Shown here piece after piece: positions 13,982 through 48,310 of a stretch of 64,000 nt of DNA. The position numbers and the translations under genes were made by a program. The stretch comes from an uncultured Polaribacter sp. (lineage in GTDB: Bacteria > Bacteroidota > Bacteroidia > Flavobacteriales > Flavobacteriaceae), in NCBI RefSeq assembly GCF_947501385.1, contig NZ_CANMVP010000008.1, positions 92,561 through 156,560 of the forward strand. The letters are read 5' to 3'. The notes beneath the pieces were generated by a model, which was given only the letters and a program-made list of their open reading frames with translations, did not search any database and was not told the origin of the DNA. The stretch's first letter is position 1, and the number at the start of each line of letters is the position of its first letter.

Positions 13982-14303
13982 TGTATATTATAAAGATGTT
14001 ATTGCAGGACAAATTATAGAAACATCAGAAGGGGATTATGTTTTTCAATATGATGAAAACTATATTGCAGTACATCCTACACAATTTATCACCTTTAGTA
14101 TGCCTGTTCAAAAAGCACCCTATAAAGATCATCGATTGTTTCCTTTTTTTGAAGGTTTGATCCCAGAAGGTTGGTTGTTAGCTATTGCTACTAAAAATTG
14201 GAAAATTAACGCTAACGATCGTATGGGGTTGTTATTGGCCTGTTGTCAAAACTGTATAGGCGCTGTTAGTGTTATACCTATAATTGAAGAAGATGAAAAA
14301 TAA
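13968..14303 (+). CDS. hipS: HipS: separate HipA N-terminal subdomain (antitoxin)
   Basis: A 111-aa protein equal to the N-terminal subdomain of HipA (FFEGLIPEGWLL, then DRMGLLLACCQNCIGAVSV, matching the HipA 'couple' domain). It is encoded as its own gene between hipB and the kinase, which is the defining layout of tripartite HipBST systems. In the E. coli O127 system the equivalent protein inhibits the HipT kinase. It overlaps hipB by 14 bp and hipT by 11 bp. Start ATG is inside the hipB 3' end. Confidence 0.85.
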   Translation: MRRGNVYYKDVIAGQIIETSEGDYVFQYDENYIAVHPTQFITFSMPVQKAPYKDHRLFPFFEGLIPEGWLLAIATKNWKINANDRMGLLLACCQNCIGAVSVIPIIEEDEK

Positions 14304-21167: not shown

Positions 21168-21265
21168 GAGAGGTGAAGTTTTAATAAATAAAATAGTCTT
21201 TTTGCCAACATTTATTACGAGCTCAAAAATTGAGTTTTTATATGATTTTAACTAAATTAAAAATT

Positions 21266-26049: not shown

Positions 26050-29000
26050 TAAAAAGATAATTTTTCTGCTGTTTTCAATAGTAATCTTTCAATTTGGTTT
26101 TTCTCAAACCACAGTAACTGGTAAAGTTAAAGACGTTAATGGAGACCTATTACCAGGCGTAACCGTTTTAATTAAGGGAACAGAAATTGGAGCAGTTTCT
26201 AATTTTGATGGAGAATATAACATAAATACAAACCAAACCAAGTTCACTTTAGTTTTTAGCTATTTAGGAATGAAAACCGAAGAAGTAGAATACAATGGAC
26301 AAAAAGTTATTGATGTCGTTTTAGAAGAAGAAGCGAATAGTCTAAATGAAATTGTAGTAATTGGTTATGGAGTCCAGAAAAAAGGTGACTTAACTGGTTC
26401 TATAGCGGGTATAAAATCAGAAACACTTGTAGAATCTCAAACTACAGATGTGTTCTCTGCAATGCAAGGAAGAGTAGCTGGTGTTAATATATCATCCGAT
26501 TCAGGTCAGCCTGGAGGAGGAAGCAACATTACAATTAGAGGTCAAACGTCAATAAACGGTACATCATCTCCGCTTTTTGTAATAGATGGTGTTCAGATTG
26601 ATATAAATTATGATGAGGTGGCATCTACTGGTTCTTCACAAGCAAGAATCAATCCGTTAACAGGTATAAATCCTGCCGATATTGAATCTGTTGATATCTT
26701 AAAAGATGCTTCTGCAACTGCTATTTATGGTTCAAGAGGAGCAAATGGAGTTGTAATTATTACCACAAAATCAGGATCATCAGATGGACGTTTAACCGCT
26801 GAGTATACGTATAATTTGGGAATTTCAGAAGTGATAAAAAAATTGTCTGTCTTATCTGCTGATGACTATTTAATATATCAACAAGAACGAGGAAATACAC
26901 AATTTTTAAATCAAGATACTGACAATGATGGTGTTTTTGAAACACCTAGAAATTTTGACGAATTACCTTCTTTTGATTGGCAGAAAGAAGCCTTGAGAAC
27001 AGCATTAAGCGGACAACATCAGTTATCTTTTAGAGGAGGTAATAAAACAACCAATTATTCTGCTGGTTTAGGTATTCTTGACCAAGAGGGACTTGTAATT
27101 AATAACAATTACGATCAATATAATTTAAGATTACGACTAAAAACAGAAGTTAACGATAGACTTGGTATTACATTTAACACCAATAGTTCGTATTCTATAT
27201 TGAGTGGTATCGCAAACAACGGTGGGCCAGATAGCTTTACAGGAGTTACTCAAATGTTAGTTATAGGTAATCCATGGAATATAAGAACAGATGATATCGA
27301 TTTTGCTGATGATGCTTTTGTGAGCCCGTTGGATTTGATTAGAGAATCCGATAAACAAACGAGTATTTTTAGATTTATCGGAAACATGAGTATTGACTAT
27401 AAGCTCACTGATAATTTAACCTATACAGGTTTTACAGGAGGAAATATTAGCCATTCTAAAGTAAAGGAATTTTACAATTCTAATACTGGCTGGGGAAGAT
27501 TACAGAATGGTCGTGCTCGAGTGAAAGAAGTAAACACCTATTCTATTAATCATTCCTCACAATTAAATTTTAAAAAGAATTTTAATCCAAATCATAGAAT
27601 TGATGTGTTAGCAGGCGTTGAGGTATTTCATTATAATTTTGAAGACTTCTCGAATGAGATTATTGGGTTCGAAAACCAAACAACTGGTGTTAATAATATT
27701 AGCGTAGGAACTTCAGTTAGTGAGTACAGTACCCGAAGATTTTCAAATAATAGGCTTTCTTTTTTAAGTAGAATTAATTACACTTTATATAAAAGATTTA
27801 TTATAACCGGAACAATGAGAGCTGATGGATCTGATAAGTTTGGAGCAGGTAACAGATGGGGATATTTCCCTTCTGCAGCATTAGCTTGGAAAATGACTAA
27901 TGAATCATTCATAAAAACTATCAAAGCTATTTCTAACTTAAAATTAAGGTTAAGCTATGGAGCTAGTGGTAACGAACGCATTCCTGCTTATAGTTCTTTA
28001 GCTCAACTAGACCCAGCTTTCTATGCTAGTAATGACAATCTTATTTTCGGTCTTGCACCTTCTAATTTAGCTAACCCTGATTTAAAGTGGGAAACAACCA
28101 AACAATACAATGCAGGTATAGATTTAGATCTCTTCAAAAATAAGATAAGCCTAAGTGCCGATGTTTATAAAAAAATCACCACAGATTTATTGTTAAACGC
28201 TCCTATTCCTTCACAAAGTGGATTCAATTCTCAATTTCAGAATATAGGTAGAATTGATAATTCGGGACTTGAATTACAAATAAGCACTGTAAACATAAAT
28301 AAAAAAGGATTTAAGTGGGAAACAGACTTTAACATCTCTTTCAATGAAAATGAAGTAAAAGATTTAGGAGGAGCAGAGTTTATACCAATAAGTACTTTTG
28401 GAGGATGGCAGGCCAACGTTGGTAGAGTTATAGTTGGAGAACCAATTGGAACTATGTACGGCTACAACTTTGAAGGAATCTATCAAATTGAAGATTTCAC
28501 ATGGGAAAACAATAGTGACCCTAGCATACCCTTTGAAGATAGAACTCTTGTTTTAAGAGACAATCTCCCAGTGTATTCTGGAACTGCTCTTCCAGGTAGA
28601 ATGAAATACAGAGATATTAACGGAGATGGTTTTGTGAATGATGAAGACAGAACAGTAATTGGTGATAGTAACCCTGTTCATTTTGGTGGAATAAATAATA
28701 CATTTAGATATAAGAACTTCGATTTATCTGTGTTTTTTCAATGGTCTTATGGTAATGATCTTTACAATGCTGCCAAAGTAAGACTAAATGGGGTAGCACC
28801 GTGGATGAATATTTCACAAGATTATTTTGAAAATCACTGGACTCCAGAAAACCCAAGTAATACAGACCCTGCATATAGAGAAATTGATCAACAAATTGCA
28901 TCATCATATTATGTAGAAGATGGATCTTACCTTAGGTTAAGAACTGTTTCTTTAGGTTACAGACTTCCAAAAGATATCACAAAAAAATTAGGATTTAGTT

Positions 29001-29161
29001 CCTTGCGACTAAACATCATAGGAAATAATTTGGCCACTTGGACTAATTATTCAGGTTGGGATCCTGAAGTTAATTTTAATAATCCTCTATTATCTGGATT
29101 AGACAGAATAGCTTATCCAAGAGCAAGAAATTTCACGTTAAGTTTTAATGCAACTTTTTAA
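26042..29161 (+). CDS. susC: SusC-like TonB-dependent oligosaccharide transporter
   Basis: A 1039-aa outer-membrane transporter. A signal peptide (FLLFSIVIFQFGFSQ) is followed by a carboxypeptidase-regulatory-like domain (about 24-100, VTGKVKDVNGDLLPGVTVLI), the SusC box NEIVVIGYGVQKKGDLTGSI, then plug and barrel. Length and the following susD mark it as a glycan importer. ATG 26042 lies inside the end of the GH110 gene; the track's start at 25976 is too early. It imports GH82-generated sulfated oligosaccharides in the proposed model. It is only moderately similar to the SusC at 56281, so the two pairs may take different products. Confidence 0.96.
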   Translation: MNNKKIIFLLFSIVIFQFGFSQTTVTGKVKDVNGDLLPGVTVLIKGTEIGAVSNFDGEYNINTNQTKFTLVFSYLGMKTEEVEYNGQKVIDVVLEEEANSLNEIVVIGYGVQKKGDLTGSIAGIKSETLVESQTTDVFSAMQGRVAGVNISSDSGQPGGGSNITIRGQTSINGTSSPLFVIDGVQIDINYDEVASTGSSQARINPLTGINPADIESVDILKDASATAIYGSRGANGVVIITTKSGSSDGRLTAEYTYNLGISEVIKKLSVLSADDYLIYQQERGNTQFLNQDTDNDGVFETPRNFDELPSFDWQKEALRTALSGQHQLSFRGGNKTTNYSAGLGILDQEGLVINNNYDQYNLRLRLKTEVNDRLGITFNTNSSYSILSGIANNGGPDSFTGVTQMLVIGNPWNIRTDDIDFADDAFVSPLDLIRESDKQTSIFRFIGNMSIDYKLTDNLTYTGFTGGNISHSKVKEFYNSNTGWGRLQNGRARVKEVNTYSINHSSQLNFKKNFNPNHRIDVLAGVEVFHYNFEDFSNEIIGFENQTTGVNNISVGTSVSEYSTRRFSNNRLSFLSRINYTLYKRFIITGTMRADGSDKFGAGNRWGYFPSAALAWKMTNESFIKTIKAISNLKLRLSYGASGNERIPAYSSLAQLDPAFYASNDNLIFGLAPSNLANPDLKWETTKQYNAGIDLDLFKNKISLSADVYKKITTDLLLNAPIPSQSGFNSQFQNIGRIDNSGLELQISTVNINKKGFKWETDFNISFNENEVKDLGGAEFIPISTFGGWQANVGRVIVGEPIGTMYGYNFEGIYQIEDFTWENNSDPSIPFEDRTLVLRDNLPVYSGTALPGRMKYRDINGDGFVNDEDRTVIGDSNPVHFGGINNTFRYKNFDLSVFFQWSYGNDLYNAAKVRLNGVAPWMNISQDYFENHWTPENPSNTDPAYREIDQQIASSYYVEDGSYLRLRTVSLGYRLPKDITKKLGFSSLRLNIIGNNLATWTNYSGWDPEVNFNNPLLSGLDRIAYPRARNFTLSFNATF

Positions 29162-29171
29162 AAAATACATT

Positions 29172-30815
29172 ATGAAAACTAGTATAAAATTTATATCATT
29201 TTTAGTTCTTTTTTTAACAATGTCGTCTTGTGATGATATTTTAGAACCAACACCATATTCTTTTACATCACCCGAAAATTTTTATAAAACGGCACAAGAT
29301 GCTGAAATAGCATTGGTAGGTGTGTATAATACGCTTACTGCAGGAGATATTCAAGGACAAGGAAATGCAGATTCTTTTAGAAGAGATCTTTATGAAATGT
29401 TAGTAGGGGGTACAGGTGAAGGTGTTGTTCCAGTAAGATTTGCAAACAATAGAGGATCGCAGTTTGGGACAGCAGCTTTTACAAGTCAAGATAATGAAAT
29501 TAATTTCACTTGGTTTTTCCTTTACGCAGGTATTAGTAGAGCAAATAGTCTTCTTGAAAATTTACCAGACATTCCTAATGATGATTTTAACGGTACAAGA
29601 AAAGTAGAAATTGAAGCAGAAGCTAGACTTTTAAGAGGTTTTTATCATACAATATTGACTATGATGCATGGAGCCATACCTGTTTATACAAGAACAGATG
29701 AAAACCCAACAAAAGCAAGACAGTCTGTTGAAGAAGTTTATGCACAAATTCTTTCAGATTATGAATTTGGCTACCAAAATCTCCAAAATAGAGGTCCTTT
29801 AGCTTCTAGTGTTAATAAATGGACTGCTGCAGGTTTGCTGTTAAAAGTACATACTTATCTAGCAAGTATGAAAATTAATGGGCTTAGTGATTTTGGATAT
29901 GCACTAAATAGTTTCAATTGGGTAGACGCAGATGCTAGTTATGGAAGTGCAGTTACCATATCTCAAGACATCGTTAATAATAGTGGTTATGGGTTAACAC
30001 AAAACTATGATCGCCTCTTTAGAGAATCAACCAAATCTGCACAGGCAGCAGAAGTCATGTTTGCTGCTGAAGGTTCGTCAGATGCCTCTCAACAAGTAAT
30101 TACTATTGTTGTAAATAATTTTATACCTCAAGGAAATCCTATTAGAACTGGTGCTGGTTCTGGTTGGACACGTCCAACAGGAGAACTTTTTGACCTCTAT
30201 AATTCAGATGATTTCCGTTTTAGTCACAATATTTCTGGAAATTTAGGTGGTAATCCTAGTGTGCTTGACGTACTCGAAATAGATGGAGTTAGGTATTACC
30301 AGCCAAGAAATTTACCTGGTAAAAACGCTGGAATTATGAGCGTTGGTAAGTACAGAATGAAAGATCCTGCTCAAAAAAACTATGCACCTTGGGCTTCTGG
30401 TATATCATTTCCTTTGTTAAGATATGGAGACATTCTTCTATTGAGAGCTGAAGCGCTTTTTTATACTGGAAACGAACCTGGGGCTAGAGCAATATTAACG
30501 GAATTACGTCGACGATCTGTTGTTGCACCTGCTTTGGTTGAAGACCTTAACGCCGCTTATTTTAATCCAGATTTTGTTAAAGAACTACAAGAGGAGCGAT
30601 CTAGAGAGCTTTGTTTTGAAATCTGGAGAAGGTTTGATTTGGCAAGATTCAATATCTATGACACAACCATTAATTCGCTCGATGTAAATAATGGATTCTA
30701 TAATGATGATGTAGTCTTATTACAACAGAATTGGATACCAGAGAAAGTATGGTTTCCCATACCAACACAGCAGATAGATTTAAATCCAAATCTAGAACAA
30801 AATAAAGGCTATTAG
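29172..30815 (+). CDS. susD: SusD-like glycan-binding lipoprotein
   Basis: A 547-aa lipoprotein (signal LVLFLTMSSCDD) with SusD/RagB features: SPENFYKTAQDAEIALVGVYNTL near the start, a TPR-like helical core (EAEARLLRGFYHTIL) and the C-terminal LQEERSRELCFEIWRRFDLARF. It caps the SusC barrel at the cell surface and binds the oligosaccharide. It begins 10 bp after the susC stop; I chose ATG 29172, which begins the lipoprotein signal, rather than 29148. Confidence 0.95.
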   Translation: MKTSIKFISFLVLFLTMSSCDDILEPTPYSFTSPENFYKTAQDAEIALVGVYNTLTAGDIQGQGNADSFRRDLYEMLVGGTGEGVVPVRFANNRGSQFGTAAFTSQDNEINFTWFFLYAGISRANSLLENLPDIPNDDFNGTRKVEIEAEARLLRGFYHTILTMMHGAIPVYTRTDENPTKARQSVEEVYAQILSDYEFGYQNLQNRGPLASSVNKWTAAGLLLKVHTYLASMKINGLSDFGYALNSFNWVDADASYGSAVTISQDIVNNSGYGLTQNYDRLFRESTKSAQAAEVMFAAEGSSDASQQVITIVVNNFIPQGNPIRTGAGSGWTRPTGELFDLYNSDDFRFSHNISGNLGGNPSVLDVLEIDGVRYYQPRNLPGKNAGIMSVGKYRMKDPAQKNYAPWASGISFPLLRYGDILLLRAEALFYTGNEPGARAILTELRRRSVVAPALVEDLNAAYFNPDFVKELQEERSRELCFEIWRRFDLARFNIYDTTINSLDVNNGFYNDDVVLLQQNWIPEKVWFPIPTQQIDLNPNLEQNKGY

Positions 30816-30856: not shown

Positions 30857-32692
30857 ATGAAAAGGATAATTATAATTGCTTTAATAATGGTTGCATGTTC
30901 TAATTTGGGTCAGGCTCAAAAACAGAATCCAGTAATTGTAAAATCGAATAATGGAGATATGACACCCATTATAAGGGACATTATAGAAAATACCCAAACA
31001 AAAGATCTGCATTTAGTTTTTGAGAAAGGAACCTATACATTTATGCCCAATTATGCATTCGGGAAATACCTAAATATTACAAATCATGGCAATGGTTACA
31101 AGAGAATTGTTTTTGATTTAAGCAAATTTCGTAATGTAACTATAGAAGGCAATGGTGCTGAATTTATATTTCATGGACAAGTGATGCCATTTCTTTTTGA
31201 CAGTTCTGAGGCTGTTAACATAAGTAATATTACCATCGATTGGGATATTCCTTTTACATTTTTAGGTGAAGTAATTGCTGTAAACAAAGAGGAAGGCTGG
31301 CGAGATATTAAACCATTTAAAAAAGGTTTTTCTTGGAAAGTTAAAAAAGGGCATTTAGAATTTCCTAATATAGATGGTTTTAGCTATAATTACCCAGGAA
31401 GCACATTGGCATTTGATGCTGTTGAAAAACGACCTATTCACGGAACATGGGATATTCACAGCAAACCAGAACGGGTAGAAGAATTACCTGGAGGTGTTTT
31501 AAGATTTCATGAAAAACTTAAGTATTATCCGCCAATAGGATCTTTGTTAAGTTCTAAAGGAGATCGTGAGCATGATCGTTATGCTCCCGCTTTTGACTTT
31601 AAAAAATCTTCAAACATCGAGTTAAATGAAATTGTTATTCATCATGCTTTAGGAATGGGTTTTCTTTTTGAGCGCTCTGAGAATATTCGAATACTAAATT
31701 CTGGTATTTATTTGAGAGAAGGAACAAATCGTGTGATATCTTCTACAGCAGATGCTACGCACTTTGCTAACTGTAAAGGAGATATTCTAATAGAGAATTG
31801 TAGGTTTGAAAATATGTTAGACGATGGCACCAATATTCATGGTACATATGTAGAACTAGATAAAGTTATTGACGACAATACATTAATGGTAAAATTAATG
31901 CATTTTGAACAGCAAGGTTTTGAGTTTGTGCTACCTGGTGATGAAGTGTGGTTCATCAAACAACCGTCTCCAAAACGCAAGGAAACTGCTGTAGTTAAGA
32001 ATGTGAAATTCATAAACGATCAGGTTATGAAAATATCTTTTACCTCAAAACTTCCAAAAGATCTTAAATCTGGTGATATTTTAGAAAATAAAACATGGAA
32101 CCCTCAATTTACCATGCGAGGTTGTACCATCAAAAATCATAGAGCAAGAAATGTGGTTCTTAAAACACCTTTAAAAACGGTTATAGAAAATAATTATTTT
32201 TCTTCTATGATGTCATCAATTTTTTTTAGAGGTGAAACATTTTTTTGGTATGAATCTGGAGCAGTTAACGATGTTCTTATCCAGAATAATAATTTTGAAT
32301 ATTGCGCTTATAGTGGAATGGAACATTCTGTGCTTAACATTACACCTAGACTTTCTAAAACGTTTGACACATCAATTACTTATGATTGTAACATTCGTTT
32401 TATAAATAATACGATACACACATTTGGAAATAGAATTGTAAGTGCAGATAGAGTTGATGGCTTAATCATTAAAAATAATACTATTATAAAAACTAAAGAT
32501 TTTCCAGAAATTTATCCCAACACACCGTTGATAGAATTGAAAAACTGTGAAAATACTATCATAGAAAAAAACAGCTATAAAAGTGATGCTAAAATAAGTG
32601 TTGATATTGACGAACAGAGTGCCAAAACTCTTTTTGAAAAAGACAATAAAGGTTTCAAAATAGGGAAAATATTCAGCGATCAAAAACAATAG
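30857..32692 (+). CDS. GH110-family alpha-1,3-galactosidase-like enzyme (copy 2)
   Basis: A 611-aa secreted beta-helix protein, possibly a lipoprotein (IALIMVACSNLG). The GH110 block is STADATHFANCKGDILIENC then FENMLDDGTNIHGTY; the three acidic residues are Asp299, Asp322 and Asp323. The LDDG variant replaces the usual LDDA. It is the last gene of the first plus-strand PUL unit, 41 bp after susD, before a new promoter. Sequence identity to copies 1 and 3 appears moderate, which suggests different linkage or sulfation preferences rather than redundancy. Confidence 0.83.
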   Translation: MKRIIIIALIMVACSNLGQAQKQNPVIVKSNNGDMTPIIRDIIENTQTKDLHLVFEKGTYTFMPNYAFGKYLNITNHGNGYKRIVFDLSKFRNVTIEGNGAEFIFHGQVMPFLFDSSEAVNISNITIDWDIPFTFLGEVIAVNKEEGWRDIKPFKKGFSWKVKKGHLEFPNIDGFSYNYPGSTLAFDAVEKRPIHGTWDIHSKPERVEELPGGVLRFHEKLKYYPPIGSLLSSKGDREHDRYAPAFDFKKSSNIELNEIVIHHALGMGFLFERSENIRILNSGIYLREGTNRVISSTADATHFANCKGDILIENCRFENMLDDGTNIHGTYVELDKVIDDNTLMVKLMHFEQQGFEFVLPGDEVWFIKQPSPKRKETAVVKNVKFINDQVMKISFTSKLPKDLKSGDILENKTWNPQFTMRGCTIKNHRARNVVLKTPLKTVIENNYFSSMMSSIFFRGETFFWYESGAVNDVLIQNNNFEYCAYSGMEHSVLNITPRLSKTFDTSITYDCNIRFINNTIHTFGNRIVSADRVDGLIIKNNTIIKTKDFPEIYPNTPLIELKNCENTIIEKNSYKSDAKISVDIDEQSAKTLFEKDNKGFKIGKIFSDQKQ

Positions 32693-33038: not shown

Positions 33039-34355
33039 ATGAAAAAAAATTACTTATCACTTATCTTATTATTATTTGTATCAATAATAACAGCTCAAAA
33101 TAACGATTTTAATAACGGAGGAGGAGATTTTCTTTGGTCTAATTCAGCAAACTGGAGTCTTGGAACTGTCCCTGTAGCTTCAAATAATGTTAGATTACCA
33201 TTAGTAGTAGAATCTTTAGTAGATACAGATATTACGATAGCTAAAATACAAACTGCTTTTGCTACTTCAGGAGATGCTGCAGTTGCTGGAGATAGCAACT
33301 TAACAATTGATGTAGCTGCTAATGCTGTTTTTGGGATTGAAAATGTTTCAAATAATAGTGTAAGCTTAATTTTTAAAGGAAACTTAACCATTAATAATTC
33401 AACTACAGCTGGAATAGCGAACACATTAATGCGAAATCAAAACGGCAGTAATAACTCAATTATTTTTTCTGACGGTTCAGTATTAAATTTAACTACACCG
33501 CTAGAAGCAAGAACTGGATCAAATAATAATTTTAGCTTCAATGGCAGTCTTGCTGGTACTGCTCCACTAAGAGTCAATGCGAATACCATTAGTACTTTTG
33601 GTGCTACATCTAATAATACTGGTTATGAAGGAGATTTTGTTTGGGTTGGTGCAAATGCATCAGTTATTGTAAATTCTGCTAATAATAACACTTTTTTACC
33701 AACTGATAGAAAAATACAAATAAATGCTATAAATGGAGCTATTGAAGTAAATGGTGAAAATGTTTTTAAAGGAAATATCTCTATAAATGGAGATCGTTCT
33801 TTTGCTTTTGATGTGAATAAAAATCAAAATAGTATGGGAACAATTACATTTGCTGGTGGTACAGCAGATGGAACACTAAATTTAGATATCGACTCTAGCA
33901 TTACAGAACTTTCTTTTGCAGATAGCTCTGAAGTAGAATGGAACATGGGTACTTTAAACATTATAGGTTACAAAGAAGGCGTTTTAAGATTTGGTACAGA
34001 CAATACTGGATTAACAGCAGCACAAATCTCTCAAATTACAGCAGATGGAGTTGCTGGTGGACAAACTTTGGCACTAGAGACAGATGGTTCCTTAGTTTTA
34101 GCTTCATCTTTAAGTATTGAAGATTATGACTACCAAAATAAAGGAAGGTTATCTTTTCCTACCATAGTTTCAAATAAAAATCTTCAAATTAAAGTACCAA
34201 TTACTTCGTATAAAATATTCAATCTTATGGGGCAAAAAGTACAAAGCGTTTCTAGTAAAAGTGAATTTCAAGAAATAAATGTAGATAATTTAAAAGCTGG
34301 AATCTATATCTTATCTATAGAAGGTAAAGTTTCAGAAAGATTTATAAAGCAATAA
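33039..34355 (+). CDS. T9SS-secreted surface protein, paralogue of the 21266 protein
   Basis: A 438-aa protein with a signal peptide (LILLLFVSIITAQ). Its mature N-terminus NNDFNNGGGDFLWSNSANWS is almost identical to that of the 854-aa protein, and the similarity continues across about 330 residues (for example GIENVSNNSVSLIFKGNLTI). It then goes straight to a T9SS sorting domain (YKIFNLMGQKVQ, LKAGIYILSI), lacking the second half of the larger paralogue. No catalytic motif is visible. It is the first gene behind promoter B, mirroring the larger paralogue behind promoter A. A shared glycan-binding module at the cell surface is the best inference. Confidence 0.72.
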   Translation: MKKNYLSLILLLFVSIITAQNNDFNNGGGDFLWSNSANWSLGTVPVASNNVRLPLVVESLVDTDITIAKIQTAFATSGDAAVAGDSNLTIDVAANAVFGIENVSNNSVSLIFKGNLTINNSTTAGIANTLMRNQNGSNNSIIFSDGSVLNLTTPLEARTGSNNNFSFNGSLAGTAPLRVNANTISTFGATSNNTGYEGDFVWVGANASVIVNSANNNTFLPTDRKIQINAINGAIEVNGENVFKGNISINGDRSFAFDVNKNQNSMGTITFAGGTADGTLNLDIDSSITELSFADSSEVEWNMGTLNIIGYKEGVLRFGTDNTGLTAAQISQITADGVAGGQTLALETDGSLVLASSLSIEDYDYQNKGRLSFPTIVSNKNLQIKVPITSYKIFNLMGQKVQSVSSKSEFQEINVDNLKAGIYILSIEGKVSERFIKQ

Positions 34356-34361
34356 AATAAA

Positions 34362-36467
34362 ATGAGCAGTAGAAAGTTTATCATAAAAGGAAAGCAAATT
34401 TTAGCTATTTGTATGCTAATCTGTACTTTTAGTTATAGCACATTTGCACAGCAAATTACGTTTGAACCCATTCCAGATTTTTTTAGGATAAAAAGAGAGT
34501 TACCATTAATTGAACTTTCTACTGCTACTACCATTAATGTATCTGACTACGGAGCTATTATTAATGATGGTAATGACGATACACAAGCCATTACAGACGC
34601 ATTAAAATTTGCAGAAGATAATGCGAGTGCAAGCAATCCTATAGAAGTAAAATTTAAAACAGGAGTTTATGATATTGGTAAAGCATACATAAATAATGAT
34701 GATTTTGAAGTAAATGATGAAACTCATACATTTTTTATAGATAGAGCAAACAATATTGTGGTTAATGGAAATAATGCAGAAATACTTTTACATGATCCTT
34801 CAGTTGGGTTCATGAGAACTTCCAATTCCGAAAATATCATCATAAAAGATTTTATTGTTGATTATAGTGAGCTTCCATTTACACAAGGAACTGTCGTTCA
34901 AAAAAATTCTGGTGAAGGTAATTTCTATCTAGAAATAGATGAAGGTTTTCCAATGATGAACAGAGGACATATTAGAAATGCTCCTCAACGCTGGGGAATG
35001 TTAAAAAATACCGATGGAAGTCTTAAAGAAGGTGCTCCAAATTTAATTAGTACCTATGATGATGCGTTCCAATTTATAAGAGCAGGAACTTTTAGATACA
35101 GAGTATCCAATTCAGACCATTTAAATTATATGGAAATTGGTGATAAATTCGTCTTTATAGCAAGGTATAATGGTAAAACAACATTTACAACAAATAATTG
35201 CAAACAAGTAACCTATTTAAGAAACACTTCTTACACAAGTGTTGCAGGTTCTTACAATGGATCTAACAATAGAGAGTGGAATGTAATCAACTGTAAATTA
35301 ACATTTAAACCAGACTCTAGCAGATTACACACAGCAAACGCAGATTGTTTTCATATTAATAGTGGTTTTATAGGACCATGGATACAAGGTTCTCTTTTTG
35401 AGGGTTATAGTGATGATGCTATGAATTTAAAACATACTAGAAGAGAAATACTTTCTGTACAAGCAAATAACCAACTTACATTACAGTTTGATGTTGTTGT
35501 AGGCGATACGTTACGATTTTACAACCCAAGAGATGGCATAGATTTAGGTACAGCAAATGTTACAGCTGTACAAAATTTAGGGAATAATGAGTTTAGAACT
35601 ACTTTATCAAAAGCAATAAACATAACCACTATAAGTGGTAATGATCATCAAACAGATGATCGATGTTATATAGAAAATAGATCTAGCGAATCTTTTGTGT
35701 TAAGAGATAATGTTTTTAGAAATGCAAGACGCTATGGTTTATTAATTCAAGGAACCTACGGAATTGTAGAAAACAACACCTTTGAAAATTTGAGTACTGG
35801 AGGAATTAAAATACGAAATGCTGCTGGTTGGGGAGAAGGTTTTGCCGCCAAACATATTACCATAAACAACAATGTTTTTAGAAACTGTGGCTATGACACC
35901 ACTTATTTAGAGGATGTTAAATCTGCTGCAATTACGGTCTACCTGTCAAAACTAGTCGAAAGTTGTTCCCCAAGTACAACAAGTAGATGTGACGTAGTAC
36001 CTACTAACTGGCAAGGTATTGAAAACATTACTATAACCAATAATGATATAAGTTACAATAAAAAGGGTATTGACATGCGAAATGTGAATACTGCTTTAAT
36101 TCAATGTAATACGATAAACCCAAATAGTTCTTTTATAGGTAGCGATTTAGGCAAAATAACAAGAGTTAATAATTCAAACGTTACACAAGCCAATGATAAC
36201 TGTAATTTATCTATCAATGAATTTAAAAAACAATGTTGGGATTTTAGAATAAAAACGAATCAAATTGATTTTAATAATAATTGTAATGCTTCTGAAGGAA
36301 ACTGGTTTTTATACGATTTGGCTGGTAGATTAATTTCATCAGATAAATTTGAATCAACTCAAAACGATTTCAATGAAATTAATATCAACCATCTTAAAAC
36401 TGGAATTTATTTATTAACAATAACTTCTAACGAAGGTACAATCACAAAAAAAATATTTAAAAGATAA
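34362..36467 (+). CDS. GH110-like beta-helix enzyme with T9SS sorting domain
   Basis: A 701-aa protein with a signal peptide (ILAICMLICTFSYSTFAQ), a right-handed beta-helix body (about 45-610) and a C-terminal T9SS type A domain (WFLYDLAGRLI, LKTGIYLLTI). It is not a standard GH110, but it keeps the same motif geometry. Asp328 lies in NADCFHINSGFIGPW, and Asp351-Asp352 in GSLFEGYSDDAMNLK, with the same 23-residue step between the first Asp and the pair as in all three GH110 proteins here. It therefore probably has glycosidase activity at the cell surface. It forms a tandem pair with the next gene (4 bp gap). Confidence 0.65.
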   Translation: MSSRKFIIKGKQILAICMLICTFSYSTFAQQITFEPIPDFFRIKRELPLIELSTATTINVSDYGAIINDGNDDTQAITDALKFAEDNASASNPIEVKFKTGVYDIGKAYINNDDFEVNDETHTFFIDRANNIVVNGNNAEILLHDPSVGFMRTSNSENIIIKDFIVDYSELPFTQGTVVQKNSGEGNFYLEIDEGFPMMNRGHIRNAPQRWGMLKNTDGSLKEGAPNLISTYDDAFQFIRAGTFRYRVSNSDHLNYMEIGDKFVFIARYNGKTTFTTNNCKQVTYLRNTSYTSVAGSYNGSNNREWNVINCKLTFKPDSSRLHTANADCFHINSGFIGPWIQGSLFEGYSDDAMNLKHTRREILSVQANNQLTLQFDVVVGDTLRFYNPRDGIDLGTANVTAVQNLGNNEFRTTLSKAINITTISGNDHQTDDRCYIENRSSESFVLRDNVFRNARRYGLLIQGTYGIVENNTFENLSTGGIKIRNAAGWGEGFAAKHITINNNVFRNCGYDTTYLEDVKSAAITVYLSKLVESCSPSTTSRCDVVPTNWQGIENITITNNDISYNKKGIDMRNVNTALIQCNTINPNSSFIGSDLGKITRVNNSNVTQANDNCNLSINEFKKQCWDFRIKTNQIDFNNNCNASEGNWFLYDLAGRLISSDKFESTQNDFNEININHLKTGIYLLTITSNEGTITKKIFKR

Positions 36468-36471
36468 ATAT

Positions 36472-38235
36472 ATGAAAAAATCGCTTTTAATAGTTTCGCT
36501 ATGTTTTGTTGGGTTTTCATTTTATGGACAATATAAATTTACACAACCAGATTTTTTCAGAAAGCAAAGAGAATTGCCTTTGATTGATATGGTTACAAGT
36601 GTGAATGTAAATGTATCAGATTTTGGAGGAATTCCTGACGATGGTAAAAATGACAGACAAGCAATTATGAAGGCTTTGAATTTTTGTAAAAAAGTAGCAT
36701 TAACAGGCGCAAATATTAAATTAATTTTTAAAAAAGGAACCTATGATTTATTTAGTGCAGAAACAGACAAAAAGTCGCACATGATCATGCTTAACGGTGC
36801 CAATAATATTTTAATTGAGGGAAACGGAGCAGAAATAATCATCCATAATCCATCAAAAGGTTTTTTTTCAATATTTAAAAGTAAAAATATTATAGTTAAA
36901 GATTTATTTATCGATTATGACCCTTTGCCTTTTACACAAGGGAAAATAGTAAATGTAGATCTTAAAGAACGATTTTTCGATTTAAAAATAGATGCAGGTT
37001 TCCCGCAATTAAGTCATGAAATGTTTCAAAAAGCAAATAGAGTTTGGGGAATGGTAATGGATGCTAATATTCCAGGAAAATTAAAAGATGGTGCTCCAAA
37101 TTTATATGGTATTAAAAAATTTGAAGAAATATCATCAGGTGTTTTTCGCTTAAGAACAAAACGAATATTATTACTAAATCATTTAGCAGTTGGTGACCCT
37201 TATGTTCACATTGCAAGAACAAATGGAAGAACTATTTTCAATACAGCTGGTAGTAAAAATATTACCTACTTAAATATTACAAGTTACTCAAGTCCTGCAG
37301 GTAGTTATGCTGCTAACAGTATGGAAGAATGGAACGTAATTGGTTGTCAAGTAAAGCTAAAAACAGGAAGAATTCATAGCGCAAATGCAGACTGTTTTCA
37401 CATTAATGGAGGCACTTTTGGACCTTGGATAGAAAATAGTCTTTTTGAAGGTTATAGTGATGATGCTATAAATATGAAAGCAACTAGAGCGCCTATTTTA
37501 GAACAAAAATCATCCACAGAATTAGTGGTAAAACAAGGCGTGAGAAAAGGTGATATTATCAAAATTTTTAACCCAAGAGAAGGTATTTTAATTGGCGAAT
37601 TTGAAGTTATCGAAAATAAATTTTTAGGAGATAGGAAAATGCATATCACTTTAAAAACTCCAATAGAACAAACTTTAGATGTGGGAGGTACTAAACTTAA
37701 TGATATTGCTTACGTAGATACTCAGTCTAACGAATCTTTTGTAATTAGAAATAATACCTTTAGAAATGCGAGAAGATATGGAATATTATTGCAAAATTCT
37801 TACGGAATTATTGAACGTAATGTATTTGAAAATTTAAGCCAATCTGCAATTAGTGCATATAATGGCGCAGATTGGGGTGAAGGTTTTGTGGCTCATCATA
37901 TAAAAATTAACCAAAATATATTTAATAATTGTGGTTATGATGCCACTTATTTAAAAGAATATAATGCAGCAACTATTCGTTTAAATGTAAATAAATTGAA
38001 AAATTTAGAAGCAAAAGGTAAATGGAATGGTGTAGAAGCGACAGAGTGGCAAGGATTAGAAGATTTTACAATTACTAATAATACTTTTTTATATAACAAA
38101 CACGCTTTATCTATTGAATGTTCTGTAAATACTATAATAAAATCGAATAAATTTATTAGAAACTCTAAAGATCTTTCAAAGAAAGGAGAAATTATTTTTA
38201 AAAACAATAATTCCAATTTAGTTTTCGAGGAATAA
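36472..38235 (+). CDS. GH110-like beta-helix enzyme, periplasmic paralogue
   Basis: A 587-aa protein with a signal peptide (LLIVSLCFVGFSFYGQ) and the same beta-helix as the 34362 protein: both open with PDFFRK/IKRELPLI and V-N-V-S-D-F/Y-G, and share SDDAxNxK. Asp307 and Asp330-Asp331 keep the Asp-x22-Asp-Asp geometry (NADCFHINGGTFGPW, SLFEGYSDDAINMK). It has no T9SS domain, so it should stay in the periplasm while its neighbour is surface-exposed. That split suggests the same linkage is cut on long chains outside and on imported oligosaccharides inside. Confidence 0.65.
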   Translation: MKKSLLIVSLCFVGFSFYGQYKFTQPDFFRKQRELPLIDMVTSVNVNVSDFGGIPDDGKNDRQAIMKALNFCKKVALTGANIKLIFKKGTYDLFSAETDKKSHMIMLNGANNILIEGNGAEIIIHNPSKGFFSIFKSKNIIVKDLFIDYDPLPFTQGKIVNVDLKERFFDLKIDAGFPQLSHEMFQKANRVWGMVMDANIPGKLKDGAPNLYGIKKFEEISSGVFRLRTKRILLLNHLAVGDPYVHIARTNGRTIFNTAGSKNITYLNITSYSSPAGSYAANSMEEWNVIGCQVKLKTGRIHSANADCFHINGGTFGPWIENSLFEGYSDDAINMKATRAPILEQKSSTELVVKQGVRKGDIIKIFNPREGILIGEFEVIENKFLGDRKMHITLKTPIEQTLDVGGTKLNDIAYVDTQSNESFVIRNNTFRNARRYGILLQNSYGIIERNVFENLSQSAISAYNGADWGEGFVAHHIKINQNIFNNCGYDATYLKEYNAATIRLNVNKLKNLEAKGKWNGVEATEWQGLEDFTITNNTFLYNKHALSIECSVNTIIKSNKFIRNSKDLSKKGEIIFKNNNSNLVFEE

Positions 38236-38288: not shown

Positions 38289-39686
38289 ATGAAAACTAAA
38301 AAACTTAATTACCTGATATTTTTACTTACAACTACACTTTTGTTTAGTTGTACTAGTAAAGCTCAATCAGAAAAAATCACTAAAAAATCACCTAAACCAA
38401 ACATTATACTTTTTTTTGTAGATGATTTAGGTTGGTCTGATTTAGGGTTTAGAAACCCTGTTTTCGGAACTCCAAATATAGATGCACTTGCCAAATCTGG
38501 TGTAAGTTTTGAGCAAGCCTATATTGCAAGTCCAACTTGTAGCCCAAGTAGAGCAACATTATTAACAGGTCAGCACCCTGCAAGATTAAAAATGGTGCGT
38601 CATATTCCTGGAGGAAAAAAGAATGGGTTTGATAGATTCGATCGCACAGAAGTTGAGTTCAATTATTTAGAAAGAGATCCTGCTAAATTTCCTTCAAGAA
38701 ATTGGTTGCCTTTAGAACATACAACTTATGCAGAAGCACTTTCTAAATTAGGATACTATAATTTGTTTGTTGGAAAATGGCATTTAGGTCATGAAAAATA
38801 TCACCCAACAGCGCAAGGGTTTCATAGACAAATAGGTACTTCTAATGATGGGCATCCTAAATCATATTATCCACCTTATTTTAAACAAAAAGATATTTTT
38901 AAAGATGATAAAGGAACCTATTTGACAGACAAATTAACTAATAACGCTGTTGATTTTATAGCTAATTACAATAAAGAAAATCCTTTTATGCTAACCTTTT
39001 CTTATTACTCTGTGCATACACCTCATCAAGGAAGAGAAGATTTGGTGCAATATTTTAAAAATAAAGGTTTAGAAGATAGATATGCTAATTATGCCGCAAT
39101 GGTAAAAGCAACAGATGAATCCATCGGAAAAGTATTAAAAGCAGTTAAAGAAAAAGGAATAGAGAAAGAAACCATCATTATATTCTTATCAGATCAAGGT
39201 GGCTTTTTTGAGAATGCACCATTTAGAGGAGGAAAAATGTCTGAAACCTTATTTGAAGGCGGATCTAGAGTGCCTTTTTTTGTGTATAGTCCTAATGTTA
39301 CACAACCAAACAGCATTAATAATTCAGTAGTACAATCAACAGATTTATTTCCTACTTTAGTAGAAATAGCTCGTGGAGATGTTTCAAAACATAAAAATTT
39401 AGACGGAGTTTCCTTGCTTTCTACTATCAAAAATAACGATTATTTAAGACGAGAACCCATATATGGCTACAGAGCTTATGAAGATTTATATGTTTCGGTT
39501 AGACAAGATGATTGGAAATTATTAGCTTACAGAAGTGGTAAAATAGAACTATTTAATATTACTGAAGACATTAAAGAAACTACAGATGTATCAAAAAGTA
39601 ATCCTGAAAAAGTAAAAGAATTAGTAAATGAACTAATGGAATGGGAAAAAGAAATGGAAGTGGAGAAATATTCTGGCATAAAATAA
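38289..39686 (+). CDS. S1 formylglycine sulfatase (lipoprotein)
   Basis: A 465-aa sulfatase with a lipoprotein signal (TTTLLFSCTS). The active-site signature is C84-S-P-S-R in ASPTCSPSRATLLTG. Metal-site segments FVDDLGWSD and FLSDQGG are present, with GKWHLGHEKYHPTAQGF between. FLSDQGG has Gln where the other sulfatases here have Asn (SDNG); Asp-Gln occurs in some iduronate-sulfatase-like S1 members, so it is not necessarily inactivating. It follows the beta-helix pair by 53 bp and is probably in the same operon. The sulfate position is unknown. Confidence 0.93.
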   Translation: MKTKKLNYLIFLLTTTLLFSCTSKAQSEKITKKSPKPNIILFFVDDLGWSDLGFRNPVFGTPNIDALAKSGVSFEQAYIASPTCSPSRATLLTGQHPARLKMVRHIPGGKKNGFDRFDRTEVEFNYLERDPAKFPSRNWLPLEHTTYAEALSKLGYYNLFVGKWHLGHEKYHPTAQGFHRQIGTSNDGHPKSYYPPYFKQKDIFKDDKGTYLTDKLTNNAVDFIANYNKENPFMLTFSYYSVHTPHQGREDLVQYFKNKGLEDRYANYAAMVKATDESIGKVLKAVKEKGIEKETIIIFLSDQGGFFENAPFRGGKMSETLFEGGSRVPFFVYSPNVTQPNSINNSVVQSTDLFPTLVEIARGDVSKHKNLDGVSLLSTIKNNDYLRREPIYGYRAYEDLYVSVRQDDWKLLAYRSGKIELFNITEDIKETTDVSKSNPEKVKELVNELMEWEKEMEVEKYSGIK

Positions 39687-39694
39687 AATCAATT

Positions 39695-41281
39695 ATGAAA
39701 ACACTGCAATATTTTAATATAATCGTAATTTTTTTTAGCGTATTTATTATTTCAAAAAGTTGTACATCCCAAGAAAATAAACAGTCAAAAAAACCAAATA
39801 TTCTTTTCTGTATTGCAGATGATGCCACTTGGAGACACATGAGTGCTTACGGTTCTAAATGGGTAAATACACCTGCTTTTGATGAAGTTGCAAAACAAGG
39901 AATACTTTTCAACAATGCGTACACACCAAACGCAAAATGTGGCCCATCAAGATCTATTATTTTAACAGGCAGAAATTCTTGGCAATTAGAAGAAGCAGCA
40001 AATCATTTGGCATATTTTCCAACTAAGTTTAAAACCTATCCAGAAGCACTTGCTGAAAAAGGGTATACAGTAGGTTATACAGGAAAAGGATGGGCGCCAG
40101 GAACTGCATTAAATGAAGATGGTTCAAAAAGAAATTTGTTAGTTAAAGCATACAATAAAATAAAGAAGGAAACACCTACAAAAGGAATTAATGCTGTTGA
40201 TTACGTTTCCAATTTTAAAAATTTTTTAAAAGAAAAAAAAGACGATACTCCTTTTTGTTTTTGGTATGGAGGACATGAACCACATCGCTTTTATGAATAT
40301 GGAACAGGTGTAAGTGTTGGTAAAAAAAAGCTATCACAAATAAATTCCGTTTTTTCTTATTGGCCTCAATCTGATGTTGTAAAAAATGATATGTTAGATT
40401 ATGCTTTTGAGCTAGAATATTTTGATAAACAATTGGGAGGAATTCTCAAAGCTTTGGAAGAAAAGGGAGAATTAGAAAATACAATAATTGTGGTTACTGC
40501 AGATAATGGAATGCCTTTTCCAAGAGTAAAAGGATTAAGTTATGAGCATTCTAACCACATGCCATTGGCAATTATGTGGAAAAATGGAATTAATAATCCA
40601 GGAAGAGTTATCCAAGATTATGTCAGTTTTATTGATTTTGCTGCAACATTTATCGATTTTGCTGGATTTACTAATAAAGAATTAGGAATGCAACCTATTC
40701 AAGGAAAAAGTCTAAAACCTTTTTTTACATCAAAAAAAGAAAACCTTATAAAATCTAAAGATGATTATGTTTTGCTTGGGCAAGAAAGACACGATGTTGG
40801 TAGACCCAATGATGTTGGATATCCTGTAAGAGGCATTGTAAAAGATGGCTTTATGTATTTGATAAATTACAAAAATGATAGATGGCCTGCTGGAAATCCA
40901 GAAACAGGCTATACAAATACAGATGGAAGCCCAACAAAAACTGAAATTTTAGAGTTAAAACGAAGTGGAGAAAATAACGAATATTGGGATTTGAATTTTG
41001 GAAAACATCCAAAAGAAGAATTGTATCAGGTTCGTATTGATGAAAATTGTATGAATAATTTAGCTTCTAATAATCAATTCCAAAAAATAAAAACAGAATT
41101 AAAAAACATATTAGAATCGGAATTACAGAAACAAAACGATCCAAGAATGTTTGGCAGAGGTGATATTTTTGATAACTATGTTCCAGATAGAAATGTCAAT
41201 TTTTATGAAAGATATATGAGAGGAGAAAAAATGAAATCAGGCTGGATAAATGATACAGATTTTGAAAAGAAAAAGAACTAA
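39695..41281 (+). CDS. S1 sulfatase, SGSH/heparan-N-sulfatase-like branch
   Basis: A 528-aa sulfatase. The signature is C82-G-P-S-R in NAKCGPSRSIILTGRNSWQL, and the N-terminal metal site reads IADDATWRHMSAYGS, both typical of the sulfamidase-like branch (S1_8 as I recall) rather than the arylsulfatase A-like branch. VVTADNGMP is the second metal segment. A lipoprotein signal (IISKSCTS) is visible. I chose ATG 39695 over the track's 39641, which lies inside the previous gene; the gap is then 8 bp. Members of this branch in marine PULs act on ordinary O-sulfates of galactans, so the N-sulfatase name should not be taken literally. Confidence 0.9.
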   Translation: MKTLQYFNIIVIFFSVFIISKSCTSQENKQSKKPNILFCIADDATWRHMSAYGSKWVNTPAFDEVAKQGILFNNAYTPNAKCGPSRSIILTGRNSWQLEEAANHLAYFPTKFKTYPEALAEKGYTVGYTGKGWAPGTALNEDGSKRNLLVKAYNKIKKETPTKGINAVDYVSNFKNFLKEKKDDTPFCFWYGGHEPHRFYEYGTGVSVGKKKLSQINSVFSYWPQSDVVKNDMLDYAFELEYFDKQLGGILKALEEKGELENTIIVVTADNGMPFPRVKGLSYEHSNHMPLAIMWKNGINNPGRVIQDYVSFIDFAATFIDFAGFTNKELGMQPIQGKSLKPFFTSKKENLIKSKDDYVLLGQERHDVGRPNDVGYPVRGIVKDGFMYLINYKNDRWPAGNPETGYTNTDGSPTKTEILELKRSGENNEYWDLNFGKHPKEELYQVRIDENCMNNLASNNQFQKIKTELKNILESELQKQNDPRMFGRGDIFDNYVPDRNVNFYERYMRGEKMKSGWINDTDFEKKKN

Positions 41282-45955: not shown

Positions 45956-48310
45956 TCATTTTACCTTAAATTCAAAATCTTCTTTTAAACCTCTAGATTT
46001 TGCTGTGATATTGATAGCTGATTCTGTATTACCAATCCTAATTAGTGCAGTTGCAATACCTGCTTCTGCCTTTATAGGATCTACATTTAAAATTTCTATG
46101 GCCTCACTTATACTTAATTCAATTGTTTCTGAAAAATTTGGATTTATAGTACCGTTATCATCAACCGCAGCGATATAACAAAACACGACATCATTAACAC
46201 CTGTTTGCGGTTTTTTACCACTTTCGTCTATCCAAATTTTAAGCTTTGTTGGTTTTTGAGGTGTTTTTACCACATCTTCACCAACTTCTTTTCCGTTCAT
46301 AAAACCAACTGCTTTTATAGTTCCTTTCTCAAATTTATTAATTTTAAAAGTAAATGGTGGATGATTTAGCTTATTGGTATTTTTCCCAGTGTCTGGTTTT
46401 TGTTTAGCTATTAATTCATCATTTAAATATAAACTAACTTCATCTGCATTAGAGAAAACTTTGATATCTAAAGGAGATTTCTCATTCCAAAAAGACGCAA
46501 TTTTTAAAACAGCACCTTCATCAAAATCTCTTTGACTTTGATAAAAATAGTAACCAAATTTTGGTATTCTAAAAGTATCCATAATTCCAGAGCGTTCTAT
46601 ATCTTCATGATACCCCCTATTATAATCGTACATTACCCAATAACTGTCTGAATAAGCAACTGTATTTAAATTATCATTATGAGCCTCTTGTATATTGTGC
46701 GCTTGTTGTAGCATTCTCGTTTCTCCAAAACCTCTTGCTTGTCTACTACTCATTTCGTCTCGTAAATCTGGAGGTAAATTGTCTTGATTTAATCCTGCAC
46801 TTTTAGAATAATATTCCCAATCTCCATATTCTGAAACTGAATAGGGTTTCTCAAAAGATGTTGGTGGGTGTAAAATTCGATGTTGACGCGCTTGCAGATA
46901 AATATCATAAACATCATCTTTCCAACCACAAGAAAATACGTTTTCTCCTGGATACTCTTCATGCACTATTTTATTCAATTTTTCCATAAAAAATAGAGGC
47001 ATAGCTGTTTCGTTTAATGAGACTTCCCAAGCCAAAACTGAAGGTCTATTTCTATCTCTTTTAATTAATTCTTTGGCAGATTTATAACAGTAATTTCGAA
47101 ATGCATCTGTATCATTATAATATTGCCAACCCATGATGGCATCAATAACTACCAAACCTAACTCATCACAAGCATCCATAAATGCAGGTGATTGTGGATA
47201 GTGTGATAATCTTATATAATTAAAACCAGCATCTTTTATTTTTTTTGCATCTCTATATTGTGCATTGTCAGATAATGCGTAACCAACAAATGGATATTCT
47301 TGATGACGATTTACGCCTCTTAAGAAAGTTTTTTCTCCGTTGATGTAAAGCTGATTTTCTTCATCAAAAGTAAATTCTCTAATCCCGAATTTGGTGATTT
47401 CTGAATCTATTTCTTTTTCATCAATAAAAATTCTTGTTTCTAATTGATATAAATTAGGATTTTTAGGTGACCATAATTTCGCTTCATTTATTTGAAACAA
47501 ATTATTGAATTCAGTATCTTTTTTTGCTTCAATTTTTTGAGTTGATACTTTTTCTTTGACTAAAGCATCATCGTAAAAAATGCGATTTATTAGTTTAACT
47601 TCTTTGGCTTTATTTTCTTCGTTAATAATATGCGTTTTAACTGCAACTTCAGATTTAGCTTTGGTAACTTTTGGATAAGTAATAAAAACACCACCACTTG
47701 CTATTTTATCTGCTAAAACTGGATCAGAAATATATGTTTTTTCTGAAATATGCAACCAAGCATTTCTATATAAACCACCAAACATATTAAAATCTAATCG
47801 CTCTAGAGGTTTTGGTCCTGTAATTTTATTATCTGTATTGTCTAATTTTACTGCAATTATATTATCGTTTCCCTTTTTTACAAATTTGGTGATATCTACT
47901 TTTACAGGTAAATAACCTCCATGATGTTCTGAAACTAAAGAGCCATTAACCCAAACTTTAGAAAAGTTCATTGCTGCTTCTAATTCTAAAAAAACTTTTT
48001 TAGTATTTGGATTTACAGGAATATCAAATGTTTTTCTGTACCAACAAATGCCTTGCCATTGATCGTTTACAATTAAAGGTTCTATCTTTGCTGTATGTGG
48101 TAAACTTACTGATTCCCAAGAGGAAATATCAATGTTTTTTTCGCTAAAGTCTTTATTAAGGTTATTTTTATCCTCAATTCTTTTAAATTCCCAATTTTGA
48201 TTAAAATTTACCTTTCTTTCATAGTTTGATGTAGAATTACATGCAACCAAACTGATAATAATGACTGCTAAAAAACTATACTTCAACCCTTTTTTGAAAC
48301 TATTTTTCAT
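45956..48310 (-). CDS. GH2-family beta-galactosidase-like lipoprotein
   Basis: A 784-aa GH2 enzyme with a lipoprotein signal (VIIISLVACNST). In order: jelly-roll sugar-binding domain (about 35-190, WQGICWYRKTFDIP), Ig-like domain (about 195-305), TIM barrel (about 310-600) and C-terminal beta domains. The acid/base is Glu434 in AWEVSLNETAMP and the nucleophile Glu494 in SVSEYGDWEYYS. GH2 covers beta-galactosidases, glucuronidases and mannosidases. In a carrageenan setting a beta-galactosidase acting on desulfated beta-1,4-linked galactose is the natural reading, but specificity is not provable here. Last gene of the minus-strand operon, 18 bp after a sulfatase. Confidence 0.9.
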   Translation of the reverse strand: MKNSFKKGLKYSFLAVIIISLVACNSTSNYERKVNFNQNWEFKRIEDKNNLNKDFSEKNIDISSWESVSLPHTAKIEPLIVNDQWQGICWYRKTFDIPVNPNTKKVFLELEAAMNFSKVWVNGSLVSEHHGGYLPVKVDITKFVKKGNDNIIAVKLDNTDNKITGPKPLERLDFNMFGGLYRNAWLHISEKTYISDPVLADKIASGGVFITYPKVTKAKSEVAVKTHIINEENKAKEVKLINRIFYDDALVKEKVSTQKIEAKKDTEFNNLFQINEAKLWSPKNPNLYQLETRIFIDEKEIDSEITKFGIREFTFDEENQLYINGEKTFLRGVNRHQEYPFVGYALSDNAQYRDAKKIKDAGFNYIRLSHYPQSPAFMDACDELGLVVIDAIMGWQYYNDTDAFRNYCYKSAKELIKRDRNRPSVLAWEVSLNETAMPLFFMEKLNKIVHEEYPGENVFSCGWKDDVYDIYLQARQHRILHPPTSFEKPYSVSEYGDWEYYSKSAGLNQDNLPPDLRDEMSSRQARGFGETRMLQQAHNIQEAHNDNLNTVAYSDSYWVMYDYNRGYHEDIERSGIMDTFRIPKFGYYFYQSQRDFDEGAVLKIASFWNEKSPLDIKVFSNADEVSLYLNDELIAKQKPDTGKNTNKLNHPPFTFKINKFEKGTIKAVGFMNGKEVGEDVVKTPQKPTKLKIWIDESGKKPQTGVNDVVFCYIAAVDDNGTINPNFSETIELSISEAIEILNVDPIKAEAGIATALIRIGNTESAINITAKSRGLKEDFEFKVK

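Follow-up and report, generated by a model that had tools for sequence, protein, structure and literature searches.

Two tandem genes of the window, i.e. the whole 64,000-nucleotide stretch of DNA analysed here, code for proteins that we call A and B (Table 1). Both share descent with the GH110 enzymes over their full length and have the GH110 fold. They are probably duplicated secreted glycosidases of a family that is a deep sister to GH110; their proposed roles are given below. No description of this family was found in the literature searched, and it is apparently uncharacterised.

Table 1. Features of the A/B locus, with positions in the window
Feature	Position	Strand	Remarks
Second S1_15-like sulfatase	15452..17005	-	69% identical to the same Flammeovirga sulfatase as the other S1_15-like sulfatase
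GH110 G2	24151..26049	+	GLAA-B domains; PDB GH110A E 3.9e-107
SusC-like TonB-dependent transporter	25976..29161	+	
SusD-like protein	29148..30815	+	
GH110 G1	30857..32692	+	60% ortholog of the 6-sulfo-alpha-galactosidase GH110A
T9SS-secreted protein, function not assigned	33039..34355	+	Adjoins A in related loci too
Protein A, 701 aa	34362..36467	+	Signal peptide, GH110-like beta-helix catalytic domain, C-terminal T9SS sorting domain
A: Asp328	35343..35345	+	Counterpart of PdGH110B D321 (base); alignment
A: Asp351-Asp352	35412..35417	+	Counterparts of PdGH110B D344 (acid) and D345 (base); alignment
A: T9SS type A sorting domain, residues 639-700	36276..36464	+	TIGR04183 E 1.1e-10; PF18962 E 8.8e-10
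Protein B, 587 aa	36472..38235	+	Signal peptide, GH110-like beta-helix, T9SS tail absent; predicted periplasmic
B: Asp307	37390..37392	+	Counterpart of D321, 50/50 family members; alignment
B: Asp330-Asp331	37459..37464	+	Counterparts of D344/D345, 50/50 invariant; alignment
B: Lys336	37477..37479	+	Replaces GH110-invariant His350; Lys in 20/20 close relatives
B: Arg434-Arg435-Tyr436	37771..37779	+	Replace GH110 R451-A452-R453
B: Trp468-x-Glu470	37873..37881	+	Counterparts of subsite -1 W486 and E488; alignment
Sulfatase	38289..39686	+	Closest solved relatives are S1_16/S1_19 carrageenan sulfatases
Sulfatase	39641..41281	+	Solved relatives distant: S1_8A 1.9e-25 full length, S1_11 type 4.5e-34 partial
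GH2	45956..48310	-	55% identical to the GH2 of a GH150-bearing Flammeovirga cluster
S1_15-like sulfatase (6-sulfatase group)	51235..52785	-	
GH110 G3	59373..61280	-	

Homology of A and B to GH110

A and B are 43.5% identical to each other, and their positions, reading frames and motifs agree with the original prediction. LamG domains are added in orthologs of A, and in Flammeovirga the A domain is found inside giant proteins; the one scanned harbours six LamG stretches. B-type proteins are devoid of a T9SS tail. Based on the presence of the T9SS tail and LamG domains on the A side and their absence from the B-type proteins, A is likely to attack the polymer extracellularly, and B to be a periplasmic enzyme. 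A match to a BT3328-type hyaluronan lyase was discarded, as it covers 76 residues only with an E-value of 1.6e-4, far under the cut-off of that model.

Searches of the PDB sequences with B using phmmer yielded strong matches to GH110 enzymes alone, the best being 8pvs (E 3.6e-21). The kinship of A and B with GH110 is already visible by plain BLAST or phmmer; their identity to GH110 is ~17-25%. A profile of 50 relatives matched all the GH110 structures with E-values of 3e-80 to 8e-59, followed by a partial match to a surface protein (E 4e-17). Profile-profile comparison of the family with 12 GH110 sequences using hhalign gave a probability of 100 and an E-value of 1.9e-70 over 519 columns, showing that they are homologous.

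AlphaFold models were obtained for A and B with pLDDT values of 87.9 and 94.9, respectively, and GH110 crystal structures are their nearest folds. In Foldseek searches, places 1 to 15 are all occupied by GH110 structures, with E-values of 9e-29 to 3e-24 for A and of 1e-29 to 1e-24 for B (TM 0.66-0.76), and the first non-GH110 match is near 1e-9 for both. In the model of B, the strands that follow D307 and D330/331 start one coil apart. The original prediction that all five proteins, i.e. A, B and the GH110s G1 to G3, are beta-helices agrees with these models and with Pfam Beta_helix matches in B and G1 to G3. Alginate C5-epimerases and lyases are among the weaker fold matches, as might suit non-hydrolytic beta-helix proteins, i.e. 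an epimerase, a lyase or a binding protein. Nevertheless, GH110 is ahead of those matches by ~15 orders of magnitude and none of 50 sequences has any change in the catalytic Asp residues, which makes a non-hydrolytic role extremely unlikely.

A spacing of 23 residues between an Asp and an Asp-Asp pair had been proposed to be common to A, B and all three GH110 proteins of the locus, and we indeed found it in the five proteins. It separates D328 from D351-D352 in A (NADCFH at 326), D307 from D330-D331 in B (NADCFH at 305), and D299 from D322-323, D320 from D343-344 and D344 from D367-368 in the GH110 proteins. We dropped the spacing as stand-alone evidence of kinship, since 6-15% of shuffled copies of these proteins contain the bare pattern; it is also found in unrelated proteins of the window, such as SusD1 and the sulfatase at 38289. 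A fuller pattern, D..[HN]x19DDxxN, was detected in 81 of the 107 ORFs of the family or of GH110 versus 0 of the 564 other ORFs in the retrieved loci, with one chance match, at 44318, in the window. Of 64 aligned sequences, 63 have the spacing of 23 and one has 24.

Family boundaries and putative active site

In a tree of 64 rows built with a quick method, the GH110 rows are all on one side of a branch with a support of 100, with A and B outside, and the family of 50 is on the opposite side, also with a support of 100. A and B form a clade with 18 proteins of marine Bacteroidota (support 99). Remoter members belong to Planctomycetota, Verrucomicrobiota, Kiritimatiellota, Lentisphaerota, Hydrogenedentota, Armatimonadota, Spirochaetota and Myxococcota. 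The Pfam models of the GLAA-B beta-barrel domains I and II match G1 to G3, but neither A nor B nor any of the 50 family members, consistent with the earlier view that the tandem proteins are not standard GH110.

Homology over the full length, common catalytic residues and the match of B to a local GH110 HMM (E 1.1e-21, in a very small database) might be taken to mean that A and B are ordinary divergent GH110 enzymes already listed by CAZy or dbCAN, with alpha-1,3-galactosidase activity. This is unlikely, given their separate clade with long branches, the absence of GLAA-B matches, the low identity and the replacement of GH110-invariant residues. As the membership tests gave mixed results, we filed the A/B family beside GH110. 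Judging from the tree, Pfam and residues, it is a deep sister family, beside GH110 rather than inside it. The sister family of the original prediction thus stands on a shared fold, shared catalytic residues and a separate clade; the 3,6-anhydro-galactose substrate assigned to it is not supported (see below).

In PdGH110B, D344 is the acid and D321 and D345 are the base, and subsite -1 comprises N85, R265, N348, R453, E480, W486 and E488, with R453 contacting both the C6-OH and the ring oxygen (McGuire et al., PMC7939477). The catalytic counterparts D307, D330 and D331 of B, together with R300, show no variation in the 50 family members. In the 64-sequence alignment, counterparts of R265, R314, D321, H324, D344, D345, N348, R451, W486 and E488 are present in 20/20 close relatives. 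Of subsite -1, R265, N348, W486 and E488 are therefore kept in these relatives, and N85 and R453 are lost. The N85-bearing loop has 24 residues in the family versus 38 in GH110, and segment 2, which matches the finger and first barrel of GH110, has 72 residues versus 81-114. Three swaps are fixed in the 20 close relatives, R453Y/F, A452R and H350K, with T319N, M291G and G490F as further differences from GH110. We did not retain E480 as a marker, as its column varies even among GH110s and the alignment is uncertain there. Based on the residues kept and replaced, the galactose platform is retained, with an altered C6 side and pocket rim and a gain of positive charge.

The alignment and the predicted fold point to a parallel beta-helix with a three-Asp inverting site of the clan GH-N type in A and B. 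An inverting mechanism is the natural inference. Both proteins would cleave alpha-galactosidic bonds in a single inverting displacement. The acid would be D351 in A and D330 in B, and the water would be activated by D328/D352 and D307/D331, respectively. The shorter loops around the pocket, together with K336 and R435, which are fixed, would be in keeping with a site that is more open and more basic, to accommodate sulfated chains.

Gene neighbourhood and candidate substrate

Leeuwenhoekiella, Kordia, Tenacibaculum, Labilibacter, Saprospiraceae and others share, with gains and losses, the order GH110 - SusC - SusD - (GH110) - T9SS protein - A - B - two sulfatases; the Tenacibaculum loci have an extra sulfatase-maturation gene. 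Orthologs of the sulfatase at 39641..41281 are encoded next to B in nine loci. In an Alistipes ORF of 1196 residues, an A/B domain is naturally fused to a GH110 domain. GH110 genes were found in all eight A/B genomes checked, in or adjoining the A/B cluster in seven of them (by coordinates, assuming contig correspondence). Among 301 genomes of the host's family, 34 harbour GH110 and five harbour A/B, all five being among those 34 (chance ~1e-5).

In the lambda-carrageenan pathway, GH150 cuts first. Trimming is done by sulfatases of S1_8 and S1_15, and the pathway ends with GH110A/B and GH2, GH110 requiring 2-O-desulfation beforehand (PMC12549532). The GH110A to which G1 is orthologous is that of Pseudoalteromonas carrageenovora. 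GH2, G3 and the S1_15-like sulfatases are 55-72% identical to proteins of a Flammeovirga kamogawensis plasmid cluster (55-56% for GH2 and GH110), which contains a GH150 relative. By these similarities, the A/B cluster resembles lambda-carrageenan clusters. None of its sulfatases is clearly S1_8. The S1_16/S1_19-like sulfatase also indicates 4-sulfate, which leaves room for a mu/nu-like or hybrid carrageenan.

We found no match to GH150, based on CglA similarity, in the window or cluster, and the genome has no GH150 either, its best match having an E-value of 5e-4 over 75 residues. The original statement that GH127, GH129 and GH16 were not recognised in the window holds for the window proteins scanned; the genome nevertheless has four GH16 genes on other contigs. 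GH127 was not found over the cut-off in the genome, GH82, GH16 and GH167 were not recognised in the cluster, and no endo-enzyme of any known family was found there. GH150 is absent from seven of the eight A/B genomes, with both present in one Flammeovirga genome. In the genome samples, GH150 and A/B do not overlap (P 0.06), so that mutual exclusion between them is suggestive only. Given the absence of GH150, what the cluster lacks is more likely an enzyme for the first endo cut than an anhydro-galactosidase.

The original prediction had proposed that A and B cut the alpha-1,3-linked, possibly 2-sulfated 3,6-anhydro-galactose of kappa/iota-carrageenan. The similarity of the neighbouring sulfatase at 38289 to kappa/iota 4-sulfatases, the lack of GH127 and the replacement of R453 by Tyr/Phe would fit this proposal. 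However, R265, N348, W486 and E488, the main contacts of 4C1 galactose in GH110, are kept, and the lambda-like cluster encodes three GH110s, i.e. non-anhydro alpha-galactosidases, and S1_15-like sulfatases, with no recognised GH82, GH16 or GH167. Furthermore, a 1C4 anhydro sugar was argued not to fit a GH110-type site (McGuire et al., PMC7939477). An anhydro-galactose substrate is therefore not favoured, and we regard it as highly doubtful.

In our preferred explanation, the substrate of the duplicated glycosidases would be a sulfated carrageenan-type galactan without anhydro-galactose, either lambda-like, or mu/nu-like or hybrid with 4- and 6-sulfate. A would leave the cell via the type IX system and attack the polymer outside, possibly as the initial endo-enzyme replacing GH150. 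The products would be taken up by SusC/D, and B would then act in the periplasm alongside the GH110s, GH2 and sulfatases. Some observations count against this explanation. Three related clusters have B without A, hence A is not always needed; the GH16 genes elsewhere in the genome might supply endo cuts; and the sulfatase at 38289 resembles kappa/iota 4-sulfatases, with no clear S1_8 among the sulfatases.

A bolder version, which we put forward only tentatively, is that A, with B, represents the founding pair of a new GH family, in which an exo-galactosidase scaffold was turned endo and cuts the alpha-1,3 bonds of lambda-type carrageenan. To our knowledge, the known endo-carrageenases cut beta-1,4 bonds. 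The shortened rim, the secretion and the missing endo-enzyme point towards endo action of A, and the kept E488, N348 and R265, which line the exo pocket in GH110, towards exo action. It is quite conceivable that both A and B are exo-acting alpha-galactosidases whose pockets, widened or altered, accept a terminal galactose that GH110 cannot take, e.g. 2-sulfated, 2,6-disulfated or 4-capped. They would then act at the oligosaccharide stage, after a first cut by another enzyme. The conserved pocket-lining residues, including W486, the altered C6 side, with the N85 loop and R453 lost, the clusters with B alone and the dependence of GH110 on prior 2-O-desulfation (PMC12549532) are consistent with exo action. 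Nevertheless, the T9SS tail on A and the LamG domains on its orthologs would be unusual for an exo-enzyme acting on oligosaccharides, and the cluster has no recognised endo-enzyme of known family for the first cut.

Comparison with known systems

The GH110 structures compared are PdGH110B (7jw4, 7jwf, 9beu), GH110A (9beh, 9bev), AgaBb (8yk1-3), the Akkermansia enzyme (8pvs) and PpaGal (9i4f). A and B resemble them in their fold, their full-length alignment, the three catalytic Asp residues at a spacing of 23, and the counterparts of R265, R314, H324, N348, R451, W486 and E488. In contrast with GH110, they form a separate clade, have a shortened N85 loop and finger segment and no GLAA-B match, and A is T9SS-secreted. 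A right-handed beta-helix with a three-Asp inverting site is also found in GH28, GH49 and GH87, of the clan GH-N type (PMC7939477), but the Foldseek matches of GH28 and GH87 to A and B are far weaker, at best ~5e-8. A GH28 or pectate-lyase assignment was rejected, as the matches are weak and partial. Like A and B, the GH82 iota-carrageenases are beta-helix proteins from degraders of red-algal polysaccharides, yet their profile match to the A/B family is N-terminal and partial only (E 1.2e-5). A and B might share a functional slot in a lambda-type cluster with the GH150 lambda-carrageenases, to which they have no sequence relation and which cut the beta-1,4 bond.

Zobellia galactanivorans uses lambda-carrageenan without GH150, and a 'novel, unidentified' enzyme family was predicted to be involved (Gobet et al., PMC6262041). 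With a lambda-type cluster, no GH150 and a secreted enzyme candidate, the A/B family is a candidate of that kind. As no Zobellia sequence is among the close relatives kept from the search, A/B may not be the Zobellia enzyme. If A does cut alpha-1,3 bonds in an endo manner, it would fill the lambda-carrageenase gap of bacteria devoid of GH150. Confirmation of activity would provide a first function for a large family that extends to Planctomycetota, Verrucomicrobiota, Lentisphaerota, Hydrogenedentota, Armatimonadota and others, and the path from an exo pocket to other specificities could then be traced against the well-solved GH110 structures.

Neighbours of the tandem beta-helix genes

Two T9SS-secreted proteins of the window share a domain with 52% identity, and the Pfam scan matched their sorting tail and nothing else. 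One form of this pair is kept in related loci next to A, which together with B forms the tandem of secreted beta-helix proteins. The Tenacibaculum cluster is flanked by an extra T9SS beta-helix paralog (L021:16155-18287, L028:16166-18295), whose GH28 match is weak. The A/B family profile revealed no relation to the two tandem lipoproteins.

Features discussed (window positions, or positions in the named fetched locus)
Feature	Position	Remark
HipA_C domain protein	14284-15237	Upstream of A/B gene cluster
T9SS-secreted protein	21230-23830	Domain in common with 33039-34355
G1 (GH110)	30857-32692	60% ortholog of GH110A
T9SS-secreted protein	33039-34355	Domain in common with 21230-23830
Tandem pectate-lyase-like beta-helix lipoproteins	61690-63033; 63198-end
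Flammeovirga giant secreted proteins, A-type domain	L024:1905-9992; L025:2797-9987; L027:964-9936	2400-3000 aa

Related domains and clusters elsewhere

A domain scan of one of the three Flammeovirga giants, L025, detected six LamG stretches. A single 1196-aa ORF of an Alistipes MAG (L032:9857-13444) combines an A/B-type domain with a GH110 domain, and a second GH110 gene adjoins it. Plasmid p1 of Flammeovirga kamogawensis (102281-127921) harbours a cluster of GH110, GH2 and sulfatase genes with a relative of the lambda-carrageenase family GH150, solely annotated as 'PQQ-binding-like beta-propeller repeat protein'.

G1 and the 6-sulfate

Because of its orthology to GH110A, the 6-sulfo-alpha-galactosidase of Pseudoalteromonas carrageenovora, and of the Arg residue that the sequence alignment places at the 6-sulfate-deciding position, G1 is probably an exo-6-sulfo-alpha-galactosidase. 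The residue governing 6-sulfate acceptance is E480 in GH110B (PdGH110B) and R460 in GH110A.
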